Source of the DNA: Litorilinea aerophila | GTDB taxonomy: Bacteria; Chloroflexota; Anaerolineae; Caldilineales; Caldilineaceae | Direction of reading: 5' to 3' | Assembly: GCA_945905745.1 (NCBI GenBank) | Contig: CAMDQF010000025.1 | Span: forward strand, 1 to 36,246 | Length of the DNA stretch: 36,246 nt | Part shown: in pieces, positions 4-21,177 of the stretch | How the letters are laid out: each line of letters starts with the position of its first letter | Position numbering within the stretch: the first letter of the stretch is position 1 | Notes under the pieces: generated by a model | What the model saw: only the letters and a program-made list of their open reading frames with translations | What the model was told of the DNA's origin: nothing | The model's database searches: none | Translations under genes and position numbers: made by a program

Positions 4-2862
4 GTGGGCTGGTGGTGGTTGGTGCTTTCCCTCCTCGGCCTCGCCAGTTGGCCTATCAGTTTCCTTCTTCTGCGCCGCCTGCGCGATCGGGGCTATCTAT
101 TCAGCCGAGCGCTGGGCTGGCTGCTGTCGGGCTGGCTGCTCTGGCTCTGCGCCAGCCTGGGGATTACCCAGAACAGTGTACTCAACGCCTGGCTGGTGGC
201 GGCTGTGGTCGGGGTGATCGGGCTGTCGTTGTTGATCTGGCAGTGGCGGGAGATTAAGACGTTTTTGGCCCAGATGTGGCCTCTGTTGCTGGTGGGCGAG
301 GCCCTTTTTGCGGTGGCTTTTGTCTTTTTTGTGTTGATCCGGATGCAGAATCCTGACATCTGGCAGCCCTGGTTTGGCGGCGAGAAGTTCATGGAGTTTG
401 CCTTCCTCAATGGCATTTTGCGCAGCCCTACCTTTCCGCCTGTGGACCCCCACTTCGCCGGCGGCTATATCAACTACTATTATTTCGGCATTTTTCTGGT
501 CGCCTATCTGGTCAAGCTGACGGGAATTTACGCCGAGGTCGCCTTCAATTTGGCGATTCCCTCCCTCTTTGCGCTGACTGTAGTGAATGCCTTTGGGGTG
601 GCCTATTCGGCGGTAGTCGGTAGCAGGTGGCAGGTGGCAGGTGGCAGGCTATCAGTGAGCAGTCATCAGTTATCAGTGGTTAGTGACGAGTCGGCGGAGC
701 TAACCCTTCACAATTCACAATTCACAATTCACCGTTCACAATTTTCTTCCGCCGACATCACCGAACCCGCACCAATTGTCGAAGCACCCGCCGCGCCTAT
801 CGACGACATCCTGGACATCGACCTGCGCCCAGCCACCCAATCAACCAGTCAACCAGTCAACCAATCGCCTGCCCCAATCGAGCGGTCAAGCATCGCAATA
901 TCCCAGCCTTCCCATCCAGCCACCCAATCACCCACTCACCTCCCGTGGCGCACCGGCCTCGCCCCTGCCCTTCTTGCGCCCCTATTTGTTGCTCTGTTGG
1001 GCAATCTAGACAGCTTTGCGCAGGTTGTCAAACGGCTGCTGGATATGAGCCAGAGCAACTTCGAGAGCGCACTTCCTGGCGTGCAGACGGTGGTACGCGC
1101 TGCCAGCGGGTTTTGGCAGGTGGCGACAACCGACATCCAGTTGCCTGGCTACGATTTCTGGGCACCCAGCCGGGTGATTCCAGCCACCATCAACGAATTT
1201 CCTTATTGGAGCTTCACCTTCGCCGACCTGCACCCCCATATGATCGGCATTCCCTTTTCCGTCCTCTTTCTGGGGCTGGTGCTGGCCCTGCTGCGCAGCT
1301 ACGACGTAGACTGGAGGCGCGAGTGGGGCCAGGGGCTGCTGCTGCTCGGGGGATTTGGGCTACTGCTGGGAACCCTGGCCAGCATCAATCTCTGGGAGTT
1401 GCCCACCTATTTTGGTCTAGGCGTGTTGACTTTGGCGGTCAGCCTCTACCGGGGGCGAGGACGGTTACCATTGCCCCTGCTTATCGGCGGCTCCCTTGGC
1501 TATCTGGTCGTGGCTTTCCTTACCTTTCTGCCTTTCTTCCGCAACTATCACAATGTGGGCGCGAGCGGCGTGGGGCTGGTCAACACACCGGACGATCTGG
1601 GCGTTTGGCTGCTGATCTGGGGCTTCTTCGCCTTTGTGCTGATCTCCTGGCTGCTGGTGAGCCTGCGGGCGCCGGCCCGGCCCGACGATGCCAAACCCAC
1701 GGGCCTGGAGCGCTGGCTGGCCCTGGCCTGGGGCAATCTGGAACGGCTGCCCCGCTTGCTGCTCTGGCAGGCGCGGCTGGTGCGCTGGCCGACGCTGGGC
1801 TTTTTGGTGGGCGTCTGGTGGATTCCCTTTTTTGTTATCGTCGGTGTGGGGCTGCTGATCTTCACTGAACAAAAGGTGCTGGGGCTTTGCCTGCCTTTCC
1901 TGGCTATCGGCTTTCTGCTGCTTTGGCGGCGGGGACGCGCTGCTGATCCGGGCGCGCTGCTGGCCGCGCTGCTGACCGTCACCGGCTTTGCCCTGCTGGC
2001 TGGAACCCAGCTAATCTTCCTAAAAGATTTTTTGCAGGGTGGCGACTGGTATCGGATGAATACGCTCTTTAAATTTTTTATTCAAGTCTGGGTTCTCTGG
2101 GGCATCGCCGCCGCCGTCGCCCTGCCCCGCATTCTGGAAGGGAAGAATAGAACGCGGATGGCGCGGATGGACGCGGATGAGGCTTTGATGCCTAATCCCC
2201 AATTCCCAATCCCCAATCCCCCACTCCTCCGCCCCCTCTGGCTTACAATTTTCACCCTCCTCCTCTTTGCCAGCCTGGCCTATCCCCTGTGGGGAACCGC
2301 GGCCCGGCTTGATCAGCGGTTGATTGGCTGGCGCCCGCCCATCGGCACGCTGAACGGGCTGGATTTTATGAATGAGGGAGTCTATACCTGGCCGGATGGC
2401 AACAACTCTATAGAACTGCGCTACGATCGGGAGGCTATCAACTGGCTGCTGGCCAATGTACGGGGCAATCTGGTGGTGGCTGAATCGTCCACCCTGGAAT
2501 ACTACCGGGCGGGCGGAAGCCGGGTGGCCTCGATGACCGGACTGAGCGGTGTGAGCGGTATGCACGAAGGCGAGCAGCGCTGGGGCGAATTGGTGGGGGA
2601 GCGGGGCGCTCTGCTGGGCGAATTCTGGAATACTACGGATTTGGGCCGTACCCGCCAATTGCTCCGGGAGTTGGAAATTTCGCTGATCTATGTGGGTCAG
2701 TTGGAGCAGCACGAACATCCCCAGGCCACAGCCAAATTCACGGAAATGGCAACTGCTGGGGAACTGTCTATCCTCTATTCCAACGACCGAGTGAAAATTT
2801 ACGCGGTGGATGGGCGGTTGCTCCCACTGGCGGACGGCCAGTTTGTCCCGAATCAACAGTAA
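4..2862 (+). CDS. DUF2298 (Chlor_Arch_YYY) polytopic membrane protein, copy 1, possibly 5'-incomplete
   Basis: This is a 952-residue, strongly hydrophobic protein of the Chlor_Arch_YYY family, whose function is unknown; it occurs in some archaea and Chloroflexota. The hallmark YYYFG is at residues 158-162, preceded by the conserved FLNGILRSPTFPPVDP stretch. A second conserved block contains ADLHPH in an outward loop, and RMNTLFKF lies near residue 685. Many transmembrane helices alternate with short loops. Two hydrophilic inserts, about residues 206-314 and 713-743, are made of short direct repeats and are absent from the paralogue at 3655. The GTG at position 4 is only the first start inside the window. 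Alignment with the paralogue suggests about eight more N-terminal residues, so the true start may lie upstream. A role in envelope glycan assembly is inferred only from neighbouring PMT-like genes. Confidence 0.85.
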   Translation: MGWWWLVLSLLGLASWPISFLLLRRLRDRGYLFSRALGWLLSGWLLWLCASLGITQNSVLNAWLVAAVVGVIGLSLLIWQWREIKTFLAQMWPLLLVGEALFAVAFVFFVLIRMQNPDIWQPWFGGEKFMEFAFLNGILRSPTFPPVDPHFAGGYINYYYFGIFLVAYLVKLTGIYAEVAFNLAIPSLFALTVVNAFGVAYSAVVGSRWQVAGGRLSVSSHQLSVVSDESAELTLHNSQFTIHRSQFSSADITEPAPIVEAPAAPIDDILDIDLRPATQSTSQPVNQSPAPIERSSIAISQPSHPATQSPTHLPWRTGLAPALLAPLFVALLGNLDSFAQVVKRLLDMSQSNFESALPGVQTVVRAASGFWQVATTDIQLPGYDFWAPSRVIPATINEFPYWSFTFADLHPHMIGIPFSVLFLGLVLALLRSYDVDWRREWGQGLLLLGGFGLLLGTLASINLWELPTYFGLGVLTLAVSLYRGRGRLPLPLLIGGSLGYLVVAFLTFLPFFRNYHNVGASGVGLVNTPDDLGVWLLIWGFFAFVLISWLLVSLRAPARPDDAKPTGLERWLALAWGNLERLPRLLLWQARLVRWPTLGFLVGVWWIPFFVIVGVGLLIFTEQKVLGLCLPFLAIGFLLLWRRGRAADPGALLAALLTVTGFALLAGTQLIFLKDFLQGGDWYRMNTLFKFFIQVWVLWGIAAAVALPRILEGKNRTRMARMDADEALMPNPQFPIPNPPLLRPLWLTIFTLLLFASLAYPLWGTAARLDQRLIGWRPPIGTLNGLDFMNEGVYTWPDGNNSIELRYDREAINWLLANVRGNLVVAESSTLEYYRAGGSRVASMTGLSGVSGMHEGEQRWGELVGERGALLGEFWNTTDLGRTRQLLRELEISLIYVGQLEQHEHPQATAKFTEMATAGELSILYSNDRVKIYAVDGRLLPLADGQFVPNQQ
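610..945. repeat. Short direct repeats embedded in frame in the first YYY gene
   Basis: The stretch is a mosaic of short repeat arrays: caggtggcaggtggcagg, a caattcacaattcacaattc array, atcagt/gttatcagt units and ccaatcaaccagtcaacca units. It is read through in frame as a Ser/Gln/Pro-rich hydrophilic segment between two membrane helices. Heptamer repeats of this kind are well known in cyanobacteria as short tandemly repeated repetitive sequences. That this is the same class of element is inferred from appearance only. Confidence 0.75.
2141..2225. repeat. Dispersed repeat (tagaacgcggat type) read in frame
   Basis: The sequence contains tagaacgcggat followed by gcgcggatggacgcggat and then a caattcccaatccccaat array. 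The same tagaacgcggat core recurs at 32214-32225 and, inverted, at 32315-32326. Here it encodes a Lys/Arg/Asp-rich loop in the YYY protein between a helix after the RMNT motif and the next helix. Confidence 0.65.
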
Positions 2863-2938
2863 CTGCATGGGCATAAAAAAGGGCAAGGAATGTTGGTTTT
2901 TCTGTACTGGTCAACGACAGCTTGAAGTGCTGATTTTC

Positions 2939-3017: not shown

Positions 3018-3109
3018 AAAAATCAACATTTTCCTGACCGTTTCAGAATTTCGGCTTTTCTTTGTGTTTTGTGCCTTTGTGGTTGAAGAAATAGCGAACG
3101 GCGAAACTT

Positions 3110-3589
3110 GTGGCACAATTCAAATCGGTAGTACTCTCCCGGCTCTGGCAGTGGATACCGGGCCTGTTTCAGTGGTGGATCATCTGGCTGCTGCGGCCCA
3201 AACTCTTTGTGGGCGTGAGCGGTGTACTGCTCAATGACGCGGGCGAAGTGCTGCTGTTGCGCCACCGCTTTCATCACCGCTACCCCTGGGGACTGCCTGG
3301 CGGTCTGCTGGAACGGGGCGAGAATCTGGTGGAGTGCTGGCGGCGGGAGGTGCGGGAAGAGACGAATCTGACCATCGCCGTTGAGAGGCTGGTTCTTCAG
3401 CGCAGTACCCGGCTCAACATCGACTTTATTTTGCAGGGCCGGGTTGTCGGTGGCGAGATGCTCCTCGATTCGACGGAGATACTAGAAGCCGCCTTTTTCT
3501 CCCCCGATGCCCTGCCCGGTGATCTGCACAAAAATCACCGAAGCGCTATCTGGAAAGCATTGGCAGGTGAGTCACTGCTGGCGTTGTAA
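3110..3589 (+). CDS. Nudix hydrolase
   Basis: The product is 159 residues. Residues 65-87 carry the Nudix box: Gly65, Glu71 and REVREE at 79-84. The usual Gly of the last pair is Asn86, a mild departure. Nudix enzymes hydrolyse nucleoside diphosphates linked to another group, with Mg2+ held by the Glu residues of the box. Substrate cannot be told from sequence; an NDP-sugar would suit the neighbours but that is inference. Residues 11-33 form an unusual Trp-rich hydrophobic N-terminal segment that could associate with membrane. The start is GTG with no strong ribosome-binding site; a later start would keep the Nudix fold. It sits between two YYY genes on the same strand. Confidence 0.85.
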   Translation: MAQFKSVVLSRLWQWIPGLFQWWIIWLLRPKLFVGVSGVLLNDAGEVLLLRHRFHHRYPWGLPGGLLERGENLVECWRREVREETNLTIAVERLVLQRSTRLNIDFILQGRVVGGEMLLDSTEILEAAFFSPDALPGDLHKNHRSAIWKALAGESLLAL

Positions 3590-3590
3590 T

Positions 3591-3643
3591 GTAGGGCGGA
3601 ATGGCATTCCGCCCCCATCGGACGGAATACGATTCCGTCCTAC
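3591..3643. repeat. Double palindrome of the GTAGG...CCTAC family
   Basis: Two perfect stems lie side by side: gggcggaat/attccgccc at 3594-3614 and ggacggaat/attccgtcc at 3620-3640. The whole is bounded by gtagg at 3591 and cctac at 3639. The related palindrome at 22660-22686 has the same GTAGG/CCTAC ends, so both look like members of one REP-like family. The element lies just upstream of the second YYY gene. Confidence 0.75.
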
Positions 3644-3654
3644 GCGGATGGTTT

Positions 3655-6171
3655 ATGGCTGCAATCATTTCAGACTTTTTCATCTGGTATCTGATCGTAC
3701 AACTTATTTCCCTGGCCGCACTGCCCCTGGCATTGACGCTCTTTGCCAATCTGCCGGATCGGGGCTATGCCTTTGCCAAAAGCCTGGGCATTCTGCTTGT
3801 CGGTGTGATCCTCTGGTTGGGGACGAGCTACGGCGTTCTGCGCAACGAGGTGGGTGGCGCGTGGTTGGCGGTGGTGCTGGTGGCGCTGCTGAGTGTTGTA
3901 GCTGGTCGGGAGGAGATGGCCCGGCTGTGGCGGGAGCGACGACTGCCCTTCGCCGGTGGCTGGCGCTATCTGCTGGGGGTGGAAGCGCTCTTTCTCGTCG
4001 CTTTTGCTGGGTGGACTCTGGTGCGCGCCTACGACCCCGCCATCAATCACACCGAGCAGCCCATGGACCTGATGTTCATGAATGGCATCTGGACCAGCCC
4101 CACCTTTCCGCCCCGAGACCCCTGGCTGGCGGGCTACGCCATCAGCTACTACTATTTCGGCTACTGGCTGCTGACAACCCTCGCCCACTTGACCGGACAG
4201 GTGCCGGAGATCGCCTACAATCTGGGCCAGGCCTGCTGGTTTGGGCTGCTGCTGGTGGGCAGCTTCGGCGTGGGCTACAATCTGTTGATGGCTGGGGCTG
4301 ACGATAGACGGCAGACGGCAGACGGCGGATCGATTGCGGCGGTTGGCGGTCTGCTCTCCGCGGTCGCTATCGGTGTGACGGGCAATTTGCTGGGCATTCT
4401 CGAATGGCTCTATGCCCAGGGCGTAAATATTGAGGGGGTCACTCGGTTTTTTGCCGTGCGCAACTTCCCCGCCGAGGCCCGGGTGACAAATCTCTGGCAC
4501 ATTGACGACGGTTGGTGGTGGTGGCGCAGCAGCCGGGTGCTGTCCGACAGGACGCTGCTGGGTGATCACATCGAAGTCATCGACGAATTCCCCATCTTCA
4601 GCTACATTCTGGGCGACAACCACCCCCACGTCCTGGCTATGCCTTTTGTGCTGCTGGTAGTGGCACTGGCTCTGAATCTCTTTCTAATGCGGAATGCGGA
4701 AGTCGGAATGCGGAGTGGGGAAACATCAATTCGCAATTCGCAATTCGCAATACGTGATCTTCTCGCGCTTATTCCCTTACGCTTCTCCGGTCTCCTCCTG
4801 CTCGTCGTCGCCGCGGGTGGCCTGATTTTCTTCAACACCTGGGATTTCCCGCCCTACTGGTTGCTGCTTACGCTCTGCGCCCTGTGGGTGGCGAAGGATA
4901 CCTTCGGGCTCGGTCGCGGCTTCTGGTTGGCCATCGGGCTGGCCGGGAGTCTGCTGTTAGGCGGGCTGATCGTCTACTTTCCCTATTTTCTCAGCGCGCA
5001 GAGCCAGGCAGGCGGGGTTGTGCCCAACTTTTTCAATCCGACCCATTTGCCCCAGTTCCTGCTGATGTTCGGCCACTTCCTGCTGGGTGTGGGCAGTCTG
5101 CTGCTGCTGGCCTGGCGCGAAGGCGCGCCGAGTCTGCGCGTGCTGGCGGTTAGCGCTGGGATTGTGCTGGGGCTACCCATTCTCTTTCTGCTGGGCACTC
5201 TGGCGATTGCCAATAACACAGAAGCCGGACGTTCTCTGCTGGAGCGGATGCCTCTCTCACCGGAGATGACCGGCTACCCCGCAGCTATCGCGGCCCGTTG
5301 GCTGGCCCGCCCGTGGACCTTTTTGCTGCTGGGTGCGCTCGTTTCTCTGGTGGCGGCGTTACTCTGGCAGCGTCTTACCGACCACAATAGTGCGCCCTCC
5401 CCTGAGACGGGGGAGGGTCAGGATAGGGACTCTGCCTCGACCTTTGCCCTGCTCCTGGCCGGAATTGGGCTGCTGCTTGTCTATGCGCCGGAGTTTGTCT
5501 ATCTGCGCGACAATTTCGGCTCGCGCATGAATACAGTCTTCAAATTCTACTATCAGGGCTGGCTGCTGCTGGGGCTGGCCGGTGTATTCGGGATTGTGCG
5601 TTCTTTCCAGGCGCGCAATCCTGCCCGGTCTTTGGCTGCGCCTCTTCTCGGCGGGCTGGCGCTCTTGCTGATTCTTGCCGCATTGATCTATCCTGTAGCA
5701 GGTGTCTACACAAAAGCCAACCACTTCCAGGGCACTCCGACTCTCAACGGCCTGGCCTACGTCGGTCCGGATGAGCTGGCGGTGATCGAGTGGCTGCGGG
5801 CCAATACACCCCCCGATGCCATTGTGCTGGAAGGCAAAGGGGGCAGCTATCGGGCCGAGACTGCCCGCCTGAGCGCAGCCACCGGGCGGGCCACCCTCTT
5901 GGGCTGGGACGGCCACGAATCCCAGTGGCGGGGCGAGGCCTACGGGTCAATGGCCCAGGGACGGCCCGAAGCCCTGGACGGGGTATATCGCAATTCCTCT
6001 GTCGAGCAATTGCAGGCTGTGCTGGACCAGTGGCAGATTGCATTCGTCGTCGTCGGCCCTGCCGAGCGCAATCAATACGGCATCCCGCCGGGGGTGGAAG
6101 ATCGGCTGGGGCAGGCGATGGAGTTGGCCTTTGCCCTGGGGGACTATCGCATTTACCGGCAGCGAAAATAA
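3655..6171 (+). CDS. DUF2298 (Chlor_Arch_YYY) polytopic membrane protein, copy 2
   Basis: With the ATG at 3655 the product is 838 residues. An in-frame ATG at 3601 lies inside the palindromic repeat and would add 18 non-conserved residues, so 3655 is preferred. The family motif SYYYFG is at residues 164-169, after MFMNGIWTSPTFPPRDP. A Trp-rich loop, DEFPIFSYILGDNHPH and RMNTVFKFYYQGW follow, all matching blocks of the first YYY protein, so the two are paralogues. Many transmembrane helices are present. Three repeat-derived hydrophilic insertions occur, near nucleotides 4302-4329, 4685-4753 and 5395-5417. Function is unknown; membrane-associated envelope sugar transfer is inferred from neighbours. 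Confidence 0.87.
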   Translation: MAAIISDFFIWYLIVQLISLAALPLALTLFANLPDRGYAFAKSLGILLVGVILWLGTSYGVLRNEVGGAWLAVVLVALLSVVAGREEMARLWRERRLPFAGGWRYLLGVEALFLVAFAGWTLVRAYDPAINHTEQPMDLMFMNGIWTSPTFPPRDPWLAGYAISYYYFGYWLLTTLAHLTGQVPEIAYNLGQACWFGLLLVGSFGVGYNLLMAGADDRRQTADGGSIAAVGGLLSAVAIGVTGNLLGILEWLYAQGVNIEGVTRFFAVRNFPAEARVTNLWHIDDGWWWWRSSRVLSDRTLLGDHIEVIDEFPIFSYILGDNHPHVLAMPFVLLVVALALNLFLMRNAEVGMRSGETSIRNSQFAIRDLLALIPLRFSGLLLLVVAAGGLIFFNTWDFPPYWLLLTLCALWVAKDTFGLGRGFWLAIGLAGSLLLGGLIVYFPYFLSAQSQAGGVVPNFFNPTHLPQFLLMFGHFLLGVGSLLLLAWREGAPSLRVLAVSAGIVLGLPILFLLGTLAIANNTEAGRSLLERMPLSPEMTGYPAAIAARWLARPWTFLLLGALVSLVAALLWQRLTDHNSAPSPETGEGQDRDSASTFALLLAGIGLLLVYAPEFVYLRDNFGSRMNTVFKFYYQGWLLLGLAGVFGIVRSFQARNPARSLAAPLLGGLALLLILAALIYPVAGVYTKANHFQGTPTLNGLAYVGPDELAVIEWLRANTPPDAIVLEGKGGSYRAETARLSAATGRATLLGWDGHESQWRGEAYGSMAQGRPEALDGVYRNSSVEQLQAVLDQWQIAFVVVGPAERNQYGIPPGVEDRLGQAMELAFALGDYRIYRQRK
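4302..4329. repeat. agacggc heptamer array in coding sequence
   Basis: The run is roughly three and a half copies of a 7-base unit (agacggc), read as ADDRRQTADGG. It lies at the loop that corresponds to the large repeat insert of the first YYY protein. Confidence 0.7.
4685..4753. repeat. atgcgga and caattcg heptamer arrays in coding sequence
   Basis: Units of aatgcgga and then caattcgcaattcgcaattc are read in frame as a hydrophilic loop (MRNAEVGMRSGETSIRNSQF) between two membrane helices of the second YYY protein. Confidence 0.7.
5395..5417. repeat. ccctcccc/ggggaggg palindrome in coding sequence
   Basis: Arms ccctcccc (5395-5402) and ggggaggg (5410-5417) flank a 7-base loop. The element is related to those at 7137-7159 and 26901-26919. 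It is translated in frame as a short Ser/Pro/Glu/Gly loop. Confidence 0.65.
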
Positions 6172-6203: not shown

Positions 6204-8039
6204 GTGAACAAACCGCTTGCGGCAATCCAGCCGTCTGAACCGAACTCTGTTGCTATCCCTACCACTGGGCTGACGATTGAGCAGGCACTCTATGGCCTGC
6301 TTCTGCTGATGGCTCTGTTGTTGCGTTTTCTGCGTCTGGGAAGCACCGCACCCCTCAACCCCCTGGAAGCCGGGCAAGCCTGGGCCGCCTGGGCCGGGGC
6401 TTTTGGACAGGAGGCAATGCTCCCTGCCCTGGCCCATTCGCCACTTCTGCATACAGCCCAGCGCTTTCTCTTCTGGCTGACCGACGGCGGCGGAGATGGT
6501 TGGGCACGGGCGCTCCCCGCACTGGCTGGCGGGCTGCTGGTGCTGGTGCCCTGGCTGCTGCGCGATGCTCTGGGCAAACCCGCCGCACTGATTCTGGCCC
6601 TGCTGCTGGCCCTGGACCCCTGGCTGCTCACCTTCAGCCGTATGGGGGACGGTGGGATTCTCTCTGTCGGGTTGGGGCTGCTGTTGATCGCTGGATTTGT
6701 CGGTGGAAGGGAAGTTTCACTCGGTGGGCGGTGGGGGCTGGCGGTTGTCGCGGGACTCTTTCTGATCAGCGGACCCCTGGCCTGGCTGCTGCTGCCGGTG
6801 GTGGTGGGGACCTTCTTCCTCTTTGGCCGAACCGATCTTTGGCCCAAGGAGCAGAACGAACGCGCCCAATTGCTCAGTATCGCCGGGGTGACAGTTGTGG
6901 CTGGCTCTACTGGCTTTCTGTCCCACTGGGATGGACTCGGCGTCATCAGCACAAGTCTGACTGTGGCCCTGGATTCCCTGCGTGCCGATGGGGGCTATTC
7001 CCTGGGCTGGGGCTTCCTACGCCTGTTCGTGGATCAGCCCCTGACACTCGTCGCCGGACTCCCCGGACTCATCGCCCTTTGGCTGAAAGTTCCTTCGGTT
7101 TCCACTTCGGAAGATGCTGATAACGAAGCATCTGTCCCCTCCCCCAGAATGGGGGAGGGCTGGGGTGGGGGTTCCCCCTGGCGTCTGCTGCTCACAGGCT
7201 GGTTTGCCTGGGGACTGCTCCTGCTCCTCCTGCCGGGGCGCAACCCGATGACGCTGCTGGTGATTGGCCTGCCCCTGGCCATCAGCGCGGCCCGCACAGG
7301 TGTTTCCTTGCTGGCCTATGCCACCCGCCAGGTCAATTGGCAAGATGGCTCACTGATTGGGACGGCGCTGGCTGTTTTACTGGTCACGACTGCTTTTTGG
7401 ACAAACCACTACAGCAACGAGTGGAGCAATCCGGGCTTCGATCGGCTGACACTTGCCTTTTACGCAATCCTGCCAGTCCTTTGTCTCTTCTTTGTCTGGT
7501 GGGCCGGCTGGCACACGAGCAGCCAGATCTTTTTGCTGATGGGACTGCCCCTGCTCTTGCTGGCCTCCTTCAGCAGCGGATGGAAGATCAACCAGCCAGG
7601 GGATACGACGGCCGGCAGCGCACTCTTTGCCGAGGTCGCCCAACCGGGACTGATAGCTCTGGTCCAGGATGTGGAGCGGCTTAGCTCCCTGCGTGCGCTG
7701 GACCCATACGAAGCATCGGTGCTGGTGGATGTAGAAACGACGGCGTCGGCGGACGCACAGGCCTTGCTGGGCTGGAATCTGCGTTCCATGCACAAGCTGA
7801 GCTTTGTGGAAGGGGTCAACCCTGCCTTTTTGACCGATGCATCCGCCCTGGTAATCGGGAATGAAGCCACGGCTTCCTCCTTGCCCGGCGGCTATATGGG
7901 CAGCGACTATCCGGTGTTGGAGCGCTGGCTGCCTACAGATTTGACCGGCGCGGGGCCGACCACCCGCTGGATTTTGATACGTGAATTGAAGATCACCCCA
8001 CCCACCACAAGCGTTGTGCTGTGGGCCAGAGAGGAATAG
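6204..8039 (+). CDS. PMT/ArnT-like (GT39-type) membrane protein with altered acidic motif
   Basis: The product is 611 residues, with about a dozen hydrophobic segments in the arrangement of dolichyl-phosphate-mannose mannosyltransferase-like proteins. The start is GTG at 6204, with aggaa eight bases upstream. GT39-type proteins use polyprenyl-phosphate sugars, and an Asp-Glu pair in the first outer loop is important. Here the equivalent site reads NPLEAGQAW: Leu54-Glu55 instead of Asp-Glu, followed by the typical AGQAW. The enzyme may therefore be inactive or altered. A C-terminal soluble segment follows the last helix. Residues about 295-325 are an in-frame repeat insertion. The next gene begins two bases after the stop, so the two are probably cotranscribed. 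Confidence 0.78.
   Translation: MNKPLAAIQPSEPNSVAIPTTGLTIEQALYGLLLLMALLLRFLRLGSTAPLNPLEAGQAWAAWAGAFGQEAMLPALAHSPLLHTAQRFLFWLTDGGGDGWARALPALAGGLLVLVPWLLRDALGKPAALILALLLALDPWLLTFSRMGDGGILSVGLGLLLIAGFVGGREVSLGGRWGLAVVAGLFLISGPLAWLLLPVVVGTFFLFGRTDLWPKEQNERAQLLSIAGVTVVAGSTGFLSHWDGLGVISTSLTVALDSLRADGGYSLGWGFLRLFVDQPLTLVAGLPGLIALWLKVPSVSTSEDADNEASVPSPRMGEGWGGGSPWRLLLTGWFAWGLLLLLLPGRNPMTLLVIGLPLAISAARTGVSLLAYATRQVNWQDGSLIGTALAVLLVTTAFWTNHYSNEWSNPGFDRLTLAFYAILPVLCLFFVWWAGWHTSSQIFLLMGLPLLLLASFSSGWKINQPGDTTAGSALFAEVAQPGLIALVQDVERLSSLRALDPYEASVLVDVETTASADAQALLGWNLRSMHKLSFVEGVNPAFLTDASALVIGNEATASSLPGGYMGSDYPVLERWLPTDLTGAGPTTRWILIRELKITPPTTSVVLWAREE
7137..7159. repeat. ccctccccc palindrome in coding sequence
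   Basis: Arms ccctccccc (7137-7145) and gggggaggg (7151-7159) flank agaat. The 19-base core ctcccccagaatgggggag is identical to the intergenic copy at 26901-26919. Translation runs through it as SPRMGEGWGGG, a loop between helices. Confidence 0.8.
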
Positions 8040-8041
8040 AA

Positions 8042-11000
8042 ATGGTACGCGACGAATTTGCCTCCGTATCGACATCAACCAATCGTCCAGCTTGGCTGGA
8101 ACGCCCCCTGTCTGGGTTGTGGCGTCTCAATTGGGAGAGCGCCGCCTGGATTGCGCTCTTTGTGCTGGCTGTGGTCAGCCGTTTTTATGATCTGGGGGCG
8201 CGGGCGATGAGCCACGACGAGAGCCTCCATGCGGTCTATTCTCTTGACCTCTTCCGCCAGGGCAGCTACCAGCACAACCCGATGATGCATGGCCCCCTGC
8301 TCTTTCACGTCAACGCCTTCTTCTACTCCCTCTTCGGCGTCACCGATGCCACCACTCGTATCTTCCCCGCGCTGAGCGGTATCGCTGTGGTGATGATAAG
8401 TTGGTTCTTCCGGCGCTGGATCGGGCGCACAGGCGCACTGCTGGCCGCGGTTATGCTGCTGATCAGCCCCAGCCTGTTTTTCCACAGCCGCTACATACGC
8501 AACGACATTTATATCGCCATTTTTGGGATGATCTGGGCCTATGGGATGTTCCGCTATCTGGAAGACCGGAAGGCCAAATGGCTCTATCTGATGGCGACCG
8601 GTATGGTCTTTTCTTTCATCGCCAAAGAGGTTGCGTTTATGACGGGCGCGCTCTTTGGTGCGTCTATCGGCGGGCTGGCCCTCTGGCGCAGTCTGGGCAA
8701 GCGCGCATTGGTGGTCATCGGACTTGGCTTGATAGCTGTGCTGGCTTTTCTTTTCCGCCCGGCAGAGGGCAGCGGACATACCCTGGCCCTGGCTATTGTG
8801 GGGCTGGCCCTGCTGGGTGCGGCGGGTCTGCTGATCTACGATCTGCGCCAGGCTGGCTGGCGGCGCTTTCTGGCCCTGCCCGAGATGGACCTGGCGGTGA
8901 TGATGCTCACTCTGGTTCTCCCCTTTACCGCGCCCTTGGGCTATCTGGTGCTCCCCTGGGAAAAGGTGGATTGGTCGTCGCCCGCGATTACCAGTGAAGG
9001 TGTGGCCCGTTGGGCGCTGCTGGTGGGAATTATGACCGTCGCCGCGATTGGGATTGCCTGGTATTGGTTCTCGGCGGCGGAGCGGGACGAGGAAGAGTCG
9101 CCCCGACCCACGCTGGCGACCTGGGCCGGGGTGATGCTCTTTTTTTGGGTGATTGCCATTGTCTTTTTCACCACTTTTTTCACCAATCCCCTGCGTGGGC
9201 TGGCTACGGGGATTGTGGGCAGTCTGGGCTATTGGATCGGCCAGCAGGCGGTGCAACGGGGCAGCCAGCCCTGGTACTACTACGGAATTCTGACGTTGCT
9301 CTATGAATTTCTGCCTGCGTTTCTGACTGTAGGCGGCGGATTGGCGATTCTGCGTGGTTTCTGGGGGGGGCAGTGGGCGGCGACACCTCCGACAGACCTC
9401 CCCGACAATCTGGCAGCCACATCTGTCCCAACGACAGCGCCCATCGCCAAAACAAAGATCGGATCTGAAACTGGTTCGCTCTTGCTGTCACCCAAAGATG
9501 CGGGTATCTATTTCGTCCTCTTTCTGGCTGCTTGGGTGGTGGGTGCCTGGGTGGCCTATTCCTACGCAGGCGAAAAGATGCCCTGGCTGCTGACCCACAT
9601 CGCCCAACCGATGGCGATTTTGGGCGGCTGGTGGCTGGGGACGGTTTTCAACCGCACCGACTGGGCAGAAGTGCGGGCCAAACAAGGCTTCTGGCTGCTG
9701 TTGCTCCTGCCTGCCCTGGGTTTTGCTCTGCTCAGCCTGGGCAAGGCCGGTCTGCCCTTTGCCGGGCGGGATGTGGAGAGCCTGGGTTCGACAGTACGCT
9801 TCTTCTTAGCCCTGGCAGCCAGCGGCGGGCTGCTCTATGCGGGCTGGCGCTGGATCGAGCGGGGAGGCGTAGCCCTGGCACTGCGCCTGTCGCTCATCGG
9901 CATCGCCGCCATTCTCTTGCTGCTCACTGTCCGCTTCAGTTATATGCTCACCTATGTCAACTACGATATGGCGACCGAATATCTGGTCTATGCCCACGCC
10001 AGCCCGGACATCAAGCGGGCGTTGACTGAGATTGACACCATCAGCCGCCGCACAGTGGGTGAGCGGGAGATTCGGGTGGCCTATGACGATGATGTGGCCT
10101 GGCCCATGAGTTGGTATATGCGCTTCTATCCCAACAATGTTTTTTATGGCAAGAATCCATCGGCGGATTCCATGAGTGCGCCGGTTGTGCTGGTGGGCAG
10201 CGCCAACTACGACAAAGTGGAACCCTATTTGCAGCGAGACTACGTGAGCCGGGACTATCGGCTGGTCTGGTGGCCGGATGAGAGTTACAAAGGCGAGTGG
10301 GACGCCGAGGCCGGGCGTTCCAAAGGGCTGACACTAACCCAGATTTGGGGTGCGTTGACCGATCCGGTGCGCCGCTCCCGGCTTTGGCAAATCTGGTTCT
10401 ACCGCAACCATCCGGGCGAGTCGGTGACGGCCTGGTCCCATCGCCACGAGTTCCGCATGTATGTGCGCCGGGACATTGCCCAAATTGTCTGGGATTTGAA
10501 TGTGACACCCACCGACGTCGTCGCTTCGACGGCTGGCCCCACTTTTGACTACGAAGAAATCGACCTTTCGGCCCAGATGGTCTACGTCGGCGTCTTCGAT
10601 AATTTGCCCCTGCTCCAACCTCGGGATGTGGCTGTGGGCGCGGACGGCAACCGCTACATTGCTGACACGGGCAACAACCGTATTGTCGTAGTGGACCGGG
10701 CGGGCAATTATGTGCGTTCCTTCGGCAGCACCTGCTTCCTTTCGGATGGGGCCGCGGGCAAGTGTGTGGACCCGGACACTGCCGGCCCTCTGGAATTGGG
10801 CGACGGCCAGTTCCGGGAGCCGTGGGGCGTAGCTGTCAGCCCGGACGGCACGATTTTTGTGGCCGATACTTGGAATGGCCGGATTCAGGTCTTTGACAAC
10901 CAGGGCAAATTCCTGCGCAAGTGGGGCGTCTTCAATATCATCGATGGAGACAACAAAGATCCCAATTCGCTCTTTGGCCCCCGGGGGCTGGCGATTGCCC

Positions 11001-11494
11001 AGAACGGCAATCTGCTTGTGGCGGACACGGGCAACAAACGGATTCTGGAATATACGCCCGCTGGTGAATTCGTAAATCAGGTGGGCGGGGGCGGCGTAGT
11101 GCTGGGCCGCTTTGAGGAACCGGTGGATGTGGCGGTGGACCCAACCACAGGTACAGTCTATGTGGCGGACATCTGGAATCGGCGTATCCAGATGCTCACG
11201 CCGGGATTGGAAGCCGTCGCGGAGTGGCCTGTGCCCAGCTGGGAGAGCAAAGACATCTGGGATAAAGCCTATCTGGCTGTGGACGGCAACGGGAAAGTCT
11301 ATGCCTCAGACCCACAGTTTTCGCAGGTCTATGTCTATGGTGCTGACGGCAAACTCCAATCGTCATTTGGTAAGTACGGTGCGGAACTCAACCGTTTTGC
11401 CAAACCCAATGGACTTGCCATCGATCCGAGCGACAATTCCTTGCTGGTGACGGATGCAGACAACAACCGGGTGATGGTCTTTGCCGGGCAATAA
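8042..11494 (+). CDS. TIGR03663-type membrane protein with C-terminal six-repeat NHL propeller
   Basis: The start is ATG 8042, preceded by gagagg at proper spacing and two bases after the previous stop; an earlier ATG at 8021 overlaps that gene. The product is 1150 residues. The N-terminus resembles PMT glycosyltransferases and carries the invariant family residues: Asp59-Glu60 and HGP at 83-85. Members of TIGR03663 usually occur beside YYY proteins, as here; from memory, current databases name the family after an archaeal flippase-associated protein, Agl23. Many helices fill residues 35-630. Residues about 860-1150 hold six NHL repeats, each with a VAVxxDG...YVADxxNxRI pattern, predicting a six-bladed propeller outside the membrane. 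Likely role: transfer or presentation of lipid-linked sugar. This is inferred. Confidence 0.85.
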   Translation: MVRDEFASVSTSTNRPAWLERPLSGLWRLNWESAAWIALFVLAVVSRFYDLGARAMSHDESLHAVYSLDLFRQGSYQHNPMMHGPLLFHVNAFFYSLFGVTDATTRIFPALSGIAVVMISWFFRRWIGRTGALLAAVMLLISPSLFFHSRYIRNDIYIAIFGMIWAYGMFRYLEDRKAKWLYLMATGMVFSFIAKEVAFMTGALFGASIGGLALWRSLGKRALVVIGLGLIAVLAFLFRPAEGSGHTLALAIVGLALLGAAGLLIYDLRQAGWRRFLALPEMDLAVMMLTLVLPFTAPLGYLVLPWEKVDWSSPAITSEGVARWALLVGIMTVAAIGIAWYWFSAAERDEEESPRPTLATWAGVMLFFWVIAIVFFTTFFTNPLRGLATGIVGSLGYWIGQQAVQRGSQPWYYYGILTLLYEFLPAFLTVGGGLAILRGFWGGQWAATPPTDLPDNLAATSVPTTAPIAKTKIGSETGSLLLSPKDAGIYFVLFLAAWVVGAWVAYSYAGEKMPWLLTHIAQPMAILGGWWLGTVFNRTDWAEVRAKQGFWLLLLLPALGFALLSLGKAGLPFAGRDVESLGSTVRFFLALAASGGLLYAGWRWIERGGVALALRLSLIGIAAILLLLTVRFSYMLTYVNYDMATEYLVYAHASPDIKRALTEIDTISRRTVGEREIRVAYDDDVAWPMSWYMRFYPNNVFYGKNPSADSMSAPVVLVGSANYDKVEPYLQRDYVSRDYRLVWWPDESYKGEWDAEAGRSKGLTLTQIWGALTDPVRRSRLWQIWFYRNHPGESVTAWSHRHEFRMYVRRDIAQIVWDLNVTPTDVVASTAGPTFDYEEIDLSAQMVYVGVFDNLPLLQPRDVAVGADGNRYIADTGNNRIVVVDRAGNYVRSFGSTCFLSDGAAGKCVDPDTAGPLELGDGQFREPWGVAVSPDGTIFVADTWNGRIQVFDNQGKFLRKWGVFNIIDGDNKDPNSLFGPRGLAIAQNGNLLVADTGNKRILEYTPAGEFVNQVGGGGVVLGRFEEPVDVAVDPTTGTVYVADIWNRRIQMLTPGLEAVAEWPVPSWESKDIWDKAYLAVDGNGKVYASDPQFSQVYVYGADGKLQSSFGKYGAELNRFAKPNGLAIDPSDNSLLVTDADNNRVMVFAGQ

Positions 11495-15451: not shown

Positions 15452-17476
15452 ATGAGCCTTCTTTTGTTGCTAGGGTCCATTGCCTTGGCAGTCTATGGGG
15501 TCAGCACAGGCAATGGACCACTTCTGCTCCTGGCCGTGCTGGCGATGGCAATTGCCAGCAGAGGTCTAAACAGCAATCAAAAGGGGCTTGACCGCATCCG
15601 CACTTGGGGCAGCACGATTGGGCCTGCCCCCTGGCTGCCTTTATTGATTGCCACACTGGTCTGTGCAGGGATGGCGATTGTCCGCATTCGTCAGGCGGAC
15701 CCGGACCCGCTGGGGATCGGACTGTGGGCGATCAGTCTTGTGCTGGCCGTCATCACAGGTATCGTCTATGACCGGGGGACTCTCTTTTGGCGGAGATTCC
15801 GGGAGGAAGTCCGCTGGGAACGGGTGGATTGGCTCATAGCTCTGGGGCTGACTGCCGTTGCCCTGGCCCTGCGTGTCTATCTGCTCGATCAGCATCTGCC
15901 CGCCATCCACGGCGACGAGGGGGAGATGGGGGTACTGGCCCGTCTGGCGCTTTACGGCCCCGGCGGCGAACTGGGGCCGAATCCCTTGCACTACTTCCGC
16001 ACCGCCTTTCTGGATCACCCGAACCTTTTCCATTATGTGCAGGCGGCCGGGCTGTGGGCTTTTGGCGATTCGGAGTGGGGGCTGAAGATGGCTTCCGTCG
16101 TCTTTGGCGCACTCACTGCCCCGCTGGTCTTTGCTGCCGGGCGGATCGGCTGGGGGCGCACCAGTGGCATTGTAGCCGGTTGGTTATTGGTGGTTTCTCA
16201 TCTGAACATCCAATTCAGCCGCATCGCGCTGAATAATATCCACAGTGTCTGGTTCGCGGCGCTCTTTTTCGTGTTGGTGCTGATCGTCTATGCGGCCGGC
16301 AATATCCGCTCGGAACAACGGGCAACACCGGCAGCAGCGGCAGCAGCAGCGGCAGTAGCCGCCGCAGATGGCAGGGCTGCTGACTCCCATTTCTATCCCG
16401 ATGCCCGCCTCGCCATCTTTATTCTAATTGGGCTGGCTGTGGGCTTAAGCCAATATTTCTACTACGGCTCCCGCCTGATTGCTGTCATGGCTGTCCCGTT
16501 GCTGCTAATGCTCTGGCGGGAAAAGCGGGCTGCTCCCCTCTATATTTTGGCCGCGGGGGCCAGTTCGATTTTGGCCTTTCTGCCGATGGTTGATTTCTAC
16601 ATCAGAGACTTCGCGCCATTTGTGAACCGAATGCGCGGGGTCAGCGTACTCAAACCAGAAGGGATAAAGAGCCTGCTCGGCCCGGATGCCGTCTGGCCCA
16701 ATGACTTGCCCGCTCTGATCTGGACACAGCTCGAACGCAATATCGCTTTCTTCATCCGCGATGGGGATGCCTCTGCCTTCTACGTGCGAGAGATTCCCGG
16801 CTTTGATATGGCTACTGTCGTGCTCTTCTGGCTGGGACTGGGCTTGCTGATCGGTCGTTGGCGCCATTTCCCCAACCAGATGATGGCCTGGTGGTTTGTG
16901 ATTGGGCTTTTTCTGGGCGGTGTCGTGACCAACGATGCGCCCAATTCCCCCCGTCTCCTCATTGTGGCCCTGGCTGTCTACTTTATTGCATCTCTACCAA
17001 TTCACTACTTTTTCGATGCGATTCAATCCTTCCTGCCTTCGTTGCATCGCCGCACTCCCCAGGCTCTGGTCGCGATCCTCTGCGCTGTCACCCTGTACCT
17101 GAATTTCGATCTCTATTTTGTTCAGTATGCCCGCATCAACCCGATCTTGCCCCTGACCGAAATTGCTATCGCTATGCAGGAACACGGCAAGAGCGAGCGG
17201 GTCTATCTCATGGGCGCGCCGGTTCTCTATGCCGAGCACGGGGTGCCCCGCTTCATTGCCAAGGATGCACCCCGTCGGAATCTGTTCGATGTCGCCGACC
17301 TGCCTGCTTATGTGGCGGAGGCCCAGGCTTCCGGGCAAGCCACCTATCTGATCATCCTCTCGCCGCGGGTGGGTGATCTGGATGCGATTATGCAGATGTT
17401 TCCCGATGGGGTGCGCGAAGATCGCCTGGATCACCTGGGCAGATTCCTTTTCATCTCTTATCTCATTCCCGCCTGA
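15452..17476 (+). CDS. GT39-like polytopic membrane glycosyltransferase
   Basis: The start chosen is ATG 15452, giving 674 residues with an immediate hydrophobic segment (MSLLLLLGSIALAVYG). The in-frame frame extends upstream to 15278 but would overlap the previous gene by 98 bases and add non-hydrophobic sequence. The first outer loop has HGDEGEMG with Asp155-Glu156, the acidic pair expected in PMT/ArnT-like enzymes. A dozen or so helices and a short C-terminal domain follow; no PA14 or NHL domain is present. An Ala-rich stretch, residues about 288-304, is encoded by gca/gcg repeats and lies in a loop. Likely transfers sugar from a polyprenyl carrier; substrate unknown. Confidence 0.82.
   Translation: MSLLLLLGSIALAVYGVSTGNGPLLLLAVLAMAIASRGLNSNQKGLDRIRTWGSTIGPAPWLPLLIATLVCAGMAIVRIRQADPDPLGIGLWAISLVLAVITGIVYDRGTLFWRRFREEVRWERVDWLIALGLTAVALALRVYLLDQHLPAIHGDEGEMGVLARLALYGPGGELGPNPLHYFRTAFLDHPNLFHYVQAAGLWAFGDSEWGLKMASVVFGALTAPLVFAAGRIGWGRTSGIVAGWLLVVSHLNIQFSRIALNNIHSVWFAALFFVLVLIVYAAGNIRSEQRATPAAAAAAAAVAAADGRAADSHFYPDARLAIFILIGLAVGLSQYFYYGSRLIAVMAVPLLLMLWREKRAAPLYILAAGASSILAFLPMVDFYIRDFAPFVNRMRGVSVLKPEGIKSLLGPDAVWPNDLPALIWTQLERNIAFFIRDGDASAFYVREIPGFDMATVVLFWLGLGLLIGRWRHFPNQMMAWWFVIGLFLGGVVTNDAPNSPRLLIVALAVYFIASLPIHYFFDAIQSFLPSLHRRTPQALVAILCAVTLYLNFDLYFVQYARINPILPLTEIAIAMQEHGKSERVYLMGAPVLYAEHGVPRFIAKDAPRRNLFDVADLPAYVAEAQASGQATYLIILSPRVGDLDAIMQMFPDGVREDRLDHLGRFLFISYLIPA
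16320..16371. repeat. gca/gcg triplet run encoding an Ala tract
   Basis: The sequence is a run of gca, gcg and gcc codons giving Ala nearly without interruption. It sits in the loop after NIRSEQR and before ADGRAADSHF. Triplet expansion keeps the frame, unlike the heptamer arrays elsewhere in this locus. Confidence 0.7.
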
Positions 17477-17487: not shown

Positions 17488-20400
17488 ATGTCACAAATCC
17501 TACCCTTTTGGCGACGTTTCACTGGCTTGCCTCTCCTTTTGGGGGCAATTGCGCTTGGGCTGGCGATTGCCGCCCAACAGTTTGTGATGCGTGGCGACGA
17601 GCGCATGGGGATCGGCCTCTATGCAATAGCCGTCGTCGTTGGCATCCTCGCCCCACACCGCTCCCGCTCTTCGTTACCCATCGGCCTCGTCACCCAAAGA
17701 GTCTGGTCCCGCCCAGCTTGGGCTGGTCTGTTGCTCTGTCTGGTTGCGATTGGGCTGGCGCTCTTTTCCATCCCCCGCTTTCAAGAGGAGCCAACCCCCA
17801 GCGTGGCCTGGTGGCTGCATATCGCCAGCCTGCTGGCCTTCGTCGCGGCCGTGGCCCTGCTTGACCGCTTCTGGATTGGCACGCGGGAAGAAGTTGTTGA
17901 CGAGGAGAAGCGGCCCTGGTCCCTTACAGAAGCTGGCGCGCTGCTCCTGATTGTGCTGCTCGGCGCGGCCCTGCGTCTCTATCGGCTGGGCGATCTCCCC
18001 TTTGGCACCTGGTACGACGAAGCCAGCGCCGGCCTGCAGGCGTTGCGTATGCTGGCCGAACCCCTCTTTCGGCCCATTTTCGACGGCGCAATCCAGTCCC
18101 CCTCCCACTACGTCTATATGGTGGCGGCCTCCTTCAAACTCTTTGATGTCAGCACGGCTTCGATTCGGCTGGCCAGCGCGGTGCTGGGGATTGCGACTGT
18201 GCCCGCGGCCTATCTGGCTGGGCGGGAGTTCTTCGGTCGCCGGTTGATGGGGTTGGTGCTGGCCTTCTTATTGGCTGTATCCAGTTGGGATATCAACTTC
18301 AGCCGTATCGGTATGTTCAACATCGCCACCCCGCTCTTTCAGTTGTTGGCGTTGGGCCTGCTTCTGCGGGGGCTGCGCACCCAACGACTGCTGCACTTTG
18401 CCTTGGCCGGGCTTTCTCTGGGTTTTGGGTTGGCCTTCTACCGGGTCTTTCAGATATTTTTGCCGGTGATCGGCCTCTTCTTTTTGCACGCGGCCATCGC
18501 CCACCGCCAGCTATTGCGCCGTTCATGGATGGGGCAGATGCTGCATCTGATGCTGCTTGTCGGGCTGGGATTGGTCCTGGCGATTCTGCCTGTGCTGGTC
18601 TTTGCCTATCAGCAGCCCGATGTCTTTTTATCCCGTACCCAGGACACCTACATTTTTACGGGCAAAGCCCCGGACGAACGCATCCCCGCCCTGCTGGAAA
18701 ATGTGCGCAAGCACGTGCTGATGTTCAACTATCTGGGCGATCCCAACGGACGCCATAACTTTCCCGGCGATCCGATGCTCGATCCGATTGTCGGCGCGCT
18801 GATGGTGCTGGGGCTTGCCCTCAGCCTGCGCCGTTTCTGGCAACCCACCCGCTTCCTGCTGCTGTCGTGGATGGTGATTATGCTGCTGGGCGGCATTCTC
18901 TCCTTGGACTTTGAAGCCCCCCAATCCCTGCGCGCTATTGGCACGCTACCGGTGGCCTATCTGCTGGCCGCGCTCCCCATCGACGCCCTCTGGCACGCCT
19001 GGCGGCAGACCCGTTTTGGAGGACGCTTCCCCCGGCTCTTTGTTTGGCCTTTGCTGGCTCTGCTGATTTATGTGGGCGTACTGAACGTAAATAAATATTT
19101 CGTGCGCCAGGCCAACGATTTTGCCGTCTGGAATGCCCACTCCACGCCGGAAACCATCGCCGCCAACTTTTTGAAAAATGAGGGCGACGAGGCCGATTTT
19201 TACATCATTTCGTTTCTCACCAACCACCCTTCTGTGAACTTCCTGGCCCGGGGCCACGGCGAGATTTTCCGCCTGGATACGACCGATCGCTTCCCGCTGC
19301 GGGTAGCAGCTGACCGGGATGTGGTTCTGATTATGAATGCCGAGAGCCGCTCGCTGTATGAGGATGCCCGCCGATTCTACCCCAACGCGACTTTCAAGGA
19401 AATCCAGCCAGATTTTGGCGGCGATGTGGTGATCTATTATGTGCGGCTGACGCCCGAAGACATCCGCAGCCTGCAAGGGTTGAACGCTACCTACTATTCC
19501 ACGCCCGATTGGAGCGGCGACCCGATTCTGACCCGCCGGGAGGAGACAATCGCCATTGACTGGGCGAGCGAACAGCCCGTGGCAGAGCCGTTTTCGGTGG
19601 AGTGGAAGGGGGTGCTCAATGTGGTCAGGTATGGCCCCTATCGCCTGACCCTGCGCGCCCCTGCCGAAGCCGAACTCTATCTGAACGAGGAGATGCTGCT
19701 TTCCGGCAGCGGGGAGTTGACCGCGGACCTGGTGCTGGCCCAGGGCAACCACGCCATACGCCTGCGGGCTGTGGGCGGGGTTGGTCCTCTGGAGCTTGCG
19801 TGGCAAGCCCCGGGCAGCGCCACCGAAATCATCCCCACCCAGGCGTTCTATGTGCCGCCGGTGACCAACAATGGGCTGCTGGGCAACTATTACGCCAACG
19901 GCGATTGGGCTGAACCGCGCGCGTTGGCCCAGATCGATCCCACCCTCAATCTCTATTTTCACGTCCCTTTGCTGCCCCGTCCCTATACCGTAGAGTGGAT
20001 CGGTAAGATTCACATCGCCGCGCCAGGCTTTTATCGTTTCGGGCTGGAATCCATCGACGAATCGTCCCTCTTCATCGACGAGCAACTGGTGACAGAGGCA
20101 GTGGTGGACAACCAGTATAGCGAAGGCTCGATTGAACTCGGCGAGGGGCTGCACGACATCCAGGTGCGCTTCGGCGACCGCACAGGCCACACCCACATCA
20201 ATCTCTACTGGACGCCGCCGGGCCGGGGCCAGTCAATTGTGCCTGCGGCTGTACTCTTCCCGCCCCAGGGCAACTACGAATATATTGAGCTGGCCGCTGC
20301 GGATACTATCTTTGCCGAGCCGCCCCCCCAGTCGTCGGACATCGCGGGTGTTGCCGGCGACTTTCCCCGAATCTCCGTGGAGGCCCAGAGCGTAGCGGTT

Positions 20401-21177
20401 GATTTGACATTGCCTCGAGGTTTGGCGATCTCCCCGGATGGGGCGACGCTCTATGTGGCCGATGCCAAGACGGTTCTGGTGATGGATGTCAGCGGCAAAG
20501 TCCAGGAGCGTCAGCAGATGCTGCTGCTCCAGCAGGGTGCAGAGCGCTTCCAGGAAATCTCGGACCTGGCCGTGGGACCGAGCGGGGAAGTCTATGTGTT
20601 GGATGCAGGCAATGGCCGCGTCGCTGTGCTGGACCCGGCAGGGGACTATCTGCGCGACATACCCATCGACGAAGCCTACAGCGGGCGCGCACGTGGGCTG
20701 TTTGTGGACAGCCAAAACCAGGTCTGGATTGCCAATACATCCAATGGGCAGGTGGCCTCCTTCGACCAGAGCGGAACGCTCCTGCGATCCTTCCCCTTGG
20801 CTCCCGGGCAGGAAACCCAACCGGTAGATGTGGCGGTCACATCCGATGGCACCATCTATGTCACCGATGTGGTCTCCAATCAACTCTTCCAGATCAAAGC
20901 CGGTTCTACCCTGCGTCAGGCCTGGAATATCCCGGTTGCCAACAGTGGCGACGGTCCCCACCTGGCGGTGGGCAGCGACGACACCCTCTACATCACCGCG
21001 CCGGAACCGGGACTGATCCTGACATTGACCCCGGACGGCGAACGCCAGGCCTGGGCTGTTCCCTGGCGCACGGATGTCCCGCCGAAACTGGTGGGTATCG
21101 CGGCCGGGCCTGACGGCCAAATCTGGGCCGTCGACAGCAGTGGCAGTGTGCTGCTGTCGGCCAGAGGGGGCAACTGA
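17488..21177 (+). CDS. GT39-like membrane protein with PA14 domains and C-terminal NHL propeller
   Basis: At 1229 residues this is the longest protein of the glycosyltransferase-like block. The PMT-like core has WYDEAS with Asp177-Glu178, and YLGDPNGRHNFPGDP shared with the protein at 12517. Helices end near residue 545. Two PA14-like domains follow, about 660-785 (ATYYSTPDWSGDPI) and 795-925 (GNYYANGDWAEP, HIAAPGFYRFGLESIDESS). Residues about 970-1229 contain six NHL-type repeats with the LAVGPSGEVYVLDAGNGRV pattern. So it unites the two extracellular modules that are found singly in its neighbours. No ribosome-binding site is obvious at ATG 17488, which starts 11 bases after the previous stop. 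A surface glycan-transfer role is inferred. Confidence 0.84.
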   Translation: MSQILPFWRRFTGLPLLLGAIALGLAIAAQQFVMRGDERMGIGLYAIAVVVGILAPHRSRSSLPIGLVTQRVWSRPAWAGLLLCLVAIGLALFSIPRFQEEPTPSVAWWLHIASLLAFVAAVALLDRFWIGTREEVVDEEKRPWSLTEAGALLLIVLLGAALRLYRLGDLPFGTWYDEASAGLQALRMLAEPLFRPIFDGAIQSPSHYVYMVAASFKLFDVSTASIRLASAVLGIATVPAAYLAGREFFGRRLMGLVLAFLLAVSSWDINFSRIGMFNIATPLFQLLALGLLLRGLRTQRLLHFALAGLSLGFGLAFYRVFQIFLPVIGLFFLHAAIAHRQLLRRSWMGQMLHLMLLVGLGLVLAILPVLVFAYQQPDVFLSRTQDTYIFTGKAPDERIPALLENVRKHVLMFNYLGDPNGRHNFPGDPMLDPIVGALMVLGLALSLRRFWQPTRFLLLSWMVIMLLGGILSLDFEAPQSLRAIGTLPVAYLLAALPIDALWHAWRQTRFGGRFPRLFVWPLLALLIYVGVLNVNKYFVRQANDFAVWNAHSTPETIAANFLKNEGDEADFYIISFLTNHPSVNFLARGHGEIFRLDTTDRFPLRVAADRDVVLIMNAESRSLYEDARRFYPNATFKEIQPDFGGDVVIYYVRLTPEDIRSLQGLNATYYSTPDWSGDPILTRREETIAIDWASEQPVAEPFSVEWKGVLNVVRYGPYRLTLRAPAEAELYLNEEMLLSGSGELTADLVLAQGNHAIRLRAVGGVGPLELAWQAPGSATEIIPTQAFYVPPVTNNGLLGNYYANGDWAEPRALAQIDPTLNLYFHVPLLPRPYTVEWIGKIHIAAPGFYRFGLESIDESSLFIDEQLVTEAVVDNQYSEGSIELGEGLHDIQVRFGDRTGHTHINLYWTPPGRGQSIVPAAVLFPPQGNYEYIELAAADTIFAEPPPQSSDIAGVAGDFPRISVEAQSVAVDLTLPRGLAISPDGATLYVADAKTVLVMDVSGKVQERQQMLLLQQGAERFQEISDLAVGPSGEVYVLDAGNGRVAVLDPAGDYLRDIPIDEAYSGRARGLFVDSQNQVWIANTSNGQVASFDQSGTLLRSFPLAPGQETQPVDVAVTSDGTIYVTDVVSNQLFQIKAGSTLRQAWNIPVANSGDGPHLAVGSDDTLYITAPEPGLILTLTPDGERQAWAVPWRTDVPPKLVGIAAGPDGQIWAVDSSGSVLLSARGGN

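Follow-up and report, generated by a model that had tools for sequence, protein, structure and literature searches.

The question raised by this locus is why seven membrane proteins are encoded side by side on the plus strand at positions 4-21177, and what they might build together. The window, namely the whole stretch of DNA that was analysed, is the entire contig C25 (36,246 bases) of a 6.4-Mb Chloroflexota assembly. A sequence-only reading had listed two YYY proteins, one TIGR03663 protein, three PMT-like proteins and a protein with a Leu-Glu motif (the Leu-Glu protein), and all of these are present with profile support. The genes of the run are as follows, in order.

4..2862, +: P0001, C-terminal part of a PMT_2-YYY fusion (YYY domain), cut by the contig edge; TIGR03662 497 bits, DUF2298
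3110..3589, +: NUDIX hydrolase; PF00293, E 1.4e-18
3601..6171, +: P0002, stand-alone YYY protein (DUF2298/TIGR03662); TIGR03662 459 bits
6204..8039, +: P0003, Leu-Glu protein, a degenerate Agl23 paralogue; Agl23 profile match E 7e-95
8021..11494, +: P0004, Agl23 (TIGR03663) with a C-terminal six-bladed NHL propeller; TIGR03663 249 bits
11540..12520, +: zinc-type alcohol dehydrogenase/quinone oxidoreductase (ADH); PF13602, PF08240
12517..15375, +: P0006, probable PMT_2 GT-C enzyme with a PA14 tail; PMT_2 28.7 bits, PA14 E 2.3e-17
15452..17476, +: P0007, probable PMT_2 GT-C enzyme without a tail; PMT_2 27.5 bits
17488..21177, +: P0008, probable PMT_2 GT-C enzyme with two PA14 stretches and an NHL tail; PMT_2 43.6 bits

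Because each of these genes has homologues, we do not regard any of them as a chance frame; for P0007, translation probably begins at the ATG at 15452. The genes had been described as lying in one direction with small gaps. The direction was borne out, and the spacing is mostly tight (-19 to 73 nt); the exceptions to the description are a gap of 247 nt 3' of P0001 and the NUDIX and ADH genes inside the run. Spacing and shared direction fit one or two putative transcription units. The NUDIX gene is found at the same place in seven of the loci compared, in several Caldilineaceae only, and the ADH gene has a 90% identical counterpart at the matching place in one sister genome. Outside Caldilineaceae, neither gene is consistently at the matching place, and we claim no role for them as parts of a pathway.

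Several other features of the window are recorded here for completeness. Immediately 3' of the run, a putative lipoprotein with LysM-like domains is encoded at 21327-21998, and two related genomes have a LysM-M23 peptidase gene at the corresponding place. A large protein encoded at 22713-26576 is trypsin-like in its N-terminal region and contains Thr/Pro-rich linkers, which lie between two 300-base repeats (80% identical) of its gene. Small overlapping frames on the minus strand (22042-22326 and 22289-22987) look by eye like a BrnT/BrnA-type toxin-antitoxin pair; the two small overlapping genes at 29053-29632, the second of which is PemK/MazF-type toxin-like by eye, suggest a toxin-antitoxin module. 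A short G/C-rich palindromic element (CCTCCCCCAGAATGGGGGAGGG and variants) is found at 5396-5427 and 7138-7169, in frame within the P0002 and P0003 genes, and at 26900-26931, where it is intergenic.

Family assignment was based on profile scores. P0001 and P0002 are well above the TIGR03662 cut-off of 300 bits, and the best named relatives of P0002 are mostly from Caldilineaceae. P0004, which also contains NHL repeats, is above the TIGR03663 cut-off of 126 bits; P0003 was filed as a paralogue and not as a member of that family, because it scores only 56 bits. P0006, P0007 and P0008 exceed the Pfam gathering score of PMT_2 (26.1 bits), the former two barely, and all three keep Asp-Glu; judging from these Pfam scores, they are probable GT-C enzymes. 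PA14 and NHL tails had been attributed to the PMT-like proteins, and this is correct for P0006 (PA14) and P0008 (PA14 and NHL) but not for P0007. The TIGR03663 family is now named Agl23, and experimental work on it has been done in Haloarcula hispanica (PMC11182771); we hereafter call P0004 Agl23-NHL.

P0001 is open at the first base of the contig, and its 5' part lies off the contig. A sister genome has the orthologous PMT_2-YYY fusion intact, with 1672 aa; P0001 aligns with its residues 738-1672 with 88% identity, and the part missing from P0001 is a PMT_2-type GT-C domain. The sequence-only reading missed this fusion because the contig edge cuts the gene. Another contig of the same assembly, C200, ends in the same PMT_2-type domain, with its frame continuing into the start of a YYY domain. 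Since C200 shares no exact overlap longer than 10 bases with the window and the common stretch differs in sequence, C200 may derive from a co-assembled relative, and we claim no join; strains may be mixed in this assembly, because it is rated 6.98% contaminated. The two copies of the YYY start, at 12410-12550 of C200 and 1-160 of the window, are similar and non-identical. In-frame short tandem arrays (CAATTCACAATTCAC, GCAATTCGCAATTCG and GGTGGCAGGTGGCAG) are present in P0001 (622-745) and P0002 (4690-4759), and the YYY-domain profile match of P0001 is split by a stretch at about 616-972 that contains the former array. At one of the loci compared (L079, 8644-10221), the PMT_2-YYY fusion is closely preceded by a gene for a G5/3D-domain (DUF348) cell-wall protein, and sister genomes have a frame of similar length at the matching place.

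Conservation of the neighbourhood was surveyed in 301 genomes drawn across Chloroflexota. The sequence-only reading had stated that YYY and TIGR03663 are known to co-occur. TIGR03662 is above the cut-off in 193 of these genomes and TIGR03663 in 191. According to the TIGRFAM notes, TIGR03663 is said to be present usually in genomes with TIGR03662, often nearby. DUF2298 beside PMT2/PA14 has also been noted in one Chloroflexi contig (PMC8756737). The bare co-occurrence is accordingly not new. Many Chloroflexota families share the order PMT_2-YYY, YYY, Leu-Glu, Agl23-NHL, so that a neighbourhood confined to the present genome can be rejected, and the locus is a real, phylum-wide GT-C cassette. Among 82 Leu-Glu genes, YYY is directly upstream in 79, and Agl23 is downstream in 46, with a contig edge there in 11 more; these counts are biased upward because YYY or Agl23 served to retrieve most of the loci. 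When the whole phylum was searched with Leu-Glu proteins alone, the strongest non-training matches with visible context adjoined YYY or Agl23 (for example, in four genomes). The four-gene set is incomplete at some loci, including some that lack the Leu-Glu gene, and at others (L066-L069) triple-domain fusions of about 2500 aa are found, with Agl23 elsewhere in the genome.

The PMT/PA14/NHL genes had been thought to share the locus as such. GT39-like relatives of P0006 or P0008 are indeed found at 22 of the 67 loci holding both Agl23 and YYY, and relatives of P0008 adjoin Agl23-NHL at five of the loci examined; P0007 is the least conserved member of the run, with one other relative among these loci. 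The PA14 PMT_2 enzymes are thus an optional addition to the locus, outside its core. Genes for PF03706 flippase-like proteins are present at 17 of the 67 loci, and PF03706 flippase-like and GT2 genes adjoin the core in other families. The window contains no gene for a polyprenyl-phosphate-sugar synthase or flippase within its 36,246 bases, and PF03706-type gene(s) are found elsewhere in the present genome.

Structure prediction, which had been proposed as a check, was carried out for Agl23-NHL and for the YYY protein P0002, and GT-C folds were predicted for both. With the neighbourhood conserved as well, neither of the two results named in advance as refuting the sequence-only reading was obtained, the PMT_2 members being assigned by their Pfam scores. 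The AlphaFold model of P0002 (pLDDT 87, pTM 0.92) was compared with the PDB, and its best matches are STT3/AglB proteins with a Z score of 14.4 over 460 aa, a value of about which size is possible by chance with all-helical models; unrelated chains score about 5-6 in the same comparison, well under the GT-C matches, and nearly all matches above Z 8 are GT-C enzymes or GT-C-fold subunits. ArnT (Z 12.5), PMT (Z 12.4) and arabinosyltransferases (Z 12-13), the latter including mycobacterial AftA, AftB and EmbB, are also among the matches. Residues 719-855 match the isolated C-terminal domain of AglB with Z 11.5 (2.7 A over 116 aa), and a marginal hhalign match to STT3 (probability 55, E 1.2e-4) is located in the same domain. 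The YYY proteins are therefore predicted from the model to have a GT-C fold nearest to STT3/AglB, including an STT3-type C-terminal domain. At the sequence level, the YYY profile has no significant match among PDB sequences, only chance matches to triosephosphate isomerase being obtained, and the STT3 family PF02516 has no match to P0001 or P0002 up to E 0.01. WDYG is found in none of 199 YYY domains, and because they are without WWDYG, we did not file the YYY proteins as STT3. The possibility that YYY is a variant of Agl23 by sequence was discarded, as profile comparison shows no relation (probability 9.6).

No paper on what DUF2298 does turned up in the literature searches. Each residue of the YYY motif, Y183-Y184-Y185, is kept in 96% or more of 199 domains, and the counts for other positions are 196/197 for E152, 196/198 for an acid at 156, 196/199 for D339 and 199/199 for H341. 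Glu152 and Asp156 follow the first core helix, as placed from helix boundaries and not by superposition. Because Glu152, the acid at 156 and Asp339-x-His341-x-His343 are kept almost without exception, the YYY proteins look like active GT-C enzymes.

For Agl23-NHL, the AlphaFold model (pLDDT 81.5) matches ArnT (5f15) over residues 37-826 with Z 28.8 (3.7 A over 438 aa), and residues 844-1157 match NHL propellers with Z up to 41.7; the membrane part is accordingly modelled as an ArnT-type GT-C fold, which we treat as a prediction. H65, D66, H70, P87, H90, R113 and R157 are invariant in all 61 Agl23-NHL proteins, and the acidic pair after the first core helix is Asp66-Glu67, again positioned by helix boundaries and not by superposition.

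The sequence-only reading did not recognise the identity of the Leu-Glu protein. Its alignment with Agl23 has a profile match probability of 100 (E 7e-95), and it also has a profile match to ArnT (E 1.1e-7). All 80 Leu-Glu proteins form a single clade with support 1.0 among Agl23 paralogues. At the position of Asp66, only 11 of 79 have an acid; in most of them Pro stands in place of Glu203 and Gly in place of Glu518. A sequencing error or local decay was rejected as the origin of the Leu-Glu motif, since the entire clade has the loss, and as judged from these relatives the Leu-Glu protein is a paralogue of Agl23 that has degenerated and is stably inherited. Because most of the active-site residues are lost, it is probably a non-catalytic partner. 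It might instead still be a glycosyltransferase that uses another donor or acceptor with a single acidic residue, and Glu67 (78/79), Arg113 (79/79) and Arg157 (75/79) are kept in its relatives, which have conserved positions of their own; we consider this rather unlikely, because the Asp, three histidines, Glu203 and Glu518 of Agl23 are replaced in most members.

Taking these results together, we propose with a probability of roughly 0.6 that the locus encodes an outer-face GT-C assembly line using polyprenyl-phosphate-linked sugars, for which family membership, gene order, predicted folds and the kept and lost active-site residues are shown by the present data, and the donor, the acceptor, the pairing and the product are what we infer. 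Proteins of the GT2 and PF03706 types would make and flip the polyprenyl-linked sugars, and Agl23-NHL would be an active ArnT-like transferase that uses them on the outer face, its NHL propeller probably holding an acceptor or a partner. Without being catalytic itself, the Leu-Glu protein would probably pair with Agl23-NHL. The YYY proteins, one of which is fused to a second GT-C domain, would probably perform transfer to the final acceptor, either a protein or a surface polymer. The PMT_2-PA14(-NHL) enzymes may be lineage-specific additions decorating exported proteins or glycans, with PA14 and NHL tails that probably bind acceptors. A role in surface glycans, as suggested by the sequence-only reading, is still the best reading, with a substrate and product that we infer. 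The accompanying statement that TIGR03663 has no established function is out of date, because flippase and glycosylation data exist for haloarchaeal Agl23 (PMC11182771).

These haloarchaeal data also provide an argument against a transferase. In liposomes, the purified H. hispanica protein is reported to translocate M5GN2-PP-Dol, which is movement of a lipid-linked oligosaccharide and a non-transferase activity, and it rescues a yeast rft1 deletion (PMC11182771); that paper and its reference 33 connect haloarchaeal Agl23 with the way lipid-linked sugars are used to make N- and O-glycans. Both Agl23 and the Leu-Glu paralogue could thus be flippases for lipid-linked sugars, with the YYY and PMT proteins using the flipped donors, and a paralogue without an active site is still compatible with transport. 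We regard this as unlikely for the present proteins, because the model of Agl23-NHL is ArnT-like (Z 28.8), a GT-C active-site signature invariant in 61 of 61 proteins is not required by transport alone, and separate PF03706 flippase-like genes adjoin the core at many loci. Better placed, while still short of even odds, is the possibility that a polysaccharide or a glycolipid, and not proteins, is what the cassette builds or decorates: ArnT, AftA, AftB and EmbB, all among the structural matches, have glycolipids or glycans as their targets, in Citrobacter O antigen is acted on by GT-C enzymes that carry a carbohydrate-binding tail (PMC11127046), and the run encodes no protein acceptor. Against it, the best matches of YYY, including those of its C-terminal domain, are protein glycosyltransferases, and the archaellin of Litorilinea aerophila has likely O-glycans (PMC12488501).

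The proposed assembly line has also to be viewed against the distribution of STT3. Canonical STT3 is strong in only seven of the 301 Chloroflexota genomes, and six of these seven lack any match to YYY (P about 0.01, with kinship ignored). Two archaeal control genomes have both YYY and STT3, and for this reason YYY is not simply an STT3 replacement; the idea is weakened. A bolder proposal, that YYY is an unrecognised OST-like class serving most Chloroflexota in the place of STT3 together with a stable pair of active and inactive Agl23, is in our view improbable. What is new for specialists is the predicted YYY fold and the pair of active and degenerate Agl23. An uncharacterised family, DUF2298, gains a specific and testable hypothesis on its fold and active site and is placed in a conserved GT-C cassette of a large phylum where canonical STT3 is rare, and the pairing of an intact GT-C enzyme with a degenerate one is described as a conserved feature. 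Enzymes of the cassette are also candidates for adding the likely O-glycans at two threonines of the archaellin of cultured Litorilinea aerophila (Caldilineales), for which no enzyme has been named (PMC12488501).

We finally compare the cassette with known systems. In the GPI transamidase, PIG-U is a GT-C-fold subunit that is considered non-catalytic. It serves as a precedent for the Leu-Glu protein, and PIG-U-type chains are among the structural matches of YYY, whereas the present locus has no transamidase partner. In three-component extracytoplasmic glycosylation (PMC11127046), a polyprenyl-phosphate-sugar synthase and a flippase are combined with a GT-C enzyme that has a carbohydrate-binding tail. 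The pathway logic is likely the same, with a GT-C enzyme carrying a binding tail in both, but the present locus has several GT-C enzymes, and the synthase and flippase genes are absent from the window. With STT3/AglB/PglB, YYY has in common the predicted GT-C fold and the C-terminal domain, and its acidic and Asp-x-His sites are at matching topological places (by inferred positions, not superposed); YYY differs in having three extra N-terminal helices, in lacking WWDYG and an STT3 Pfam match, and in its marginal sequence similarity. H. hispanica Agl23 belongs to the same NCBIfam family as P0004, but the latter is fused to an NHL propeller and paired with a degenerate paralogue in a host without strong STT3. 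With ArnT and PMT (GT83/GT39), the resemblance lies in the closeness of the Agl23 model to ArnT and in the PMT_2 matches and Asp-Glu of P0006-P0008, whereas the enzymes here have PA14 and NHL tails and are clustered with YYY.
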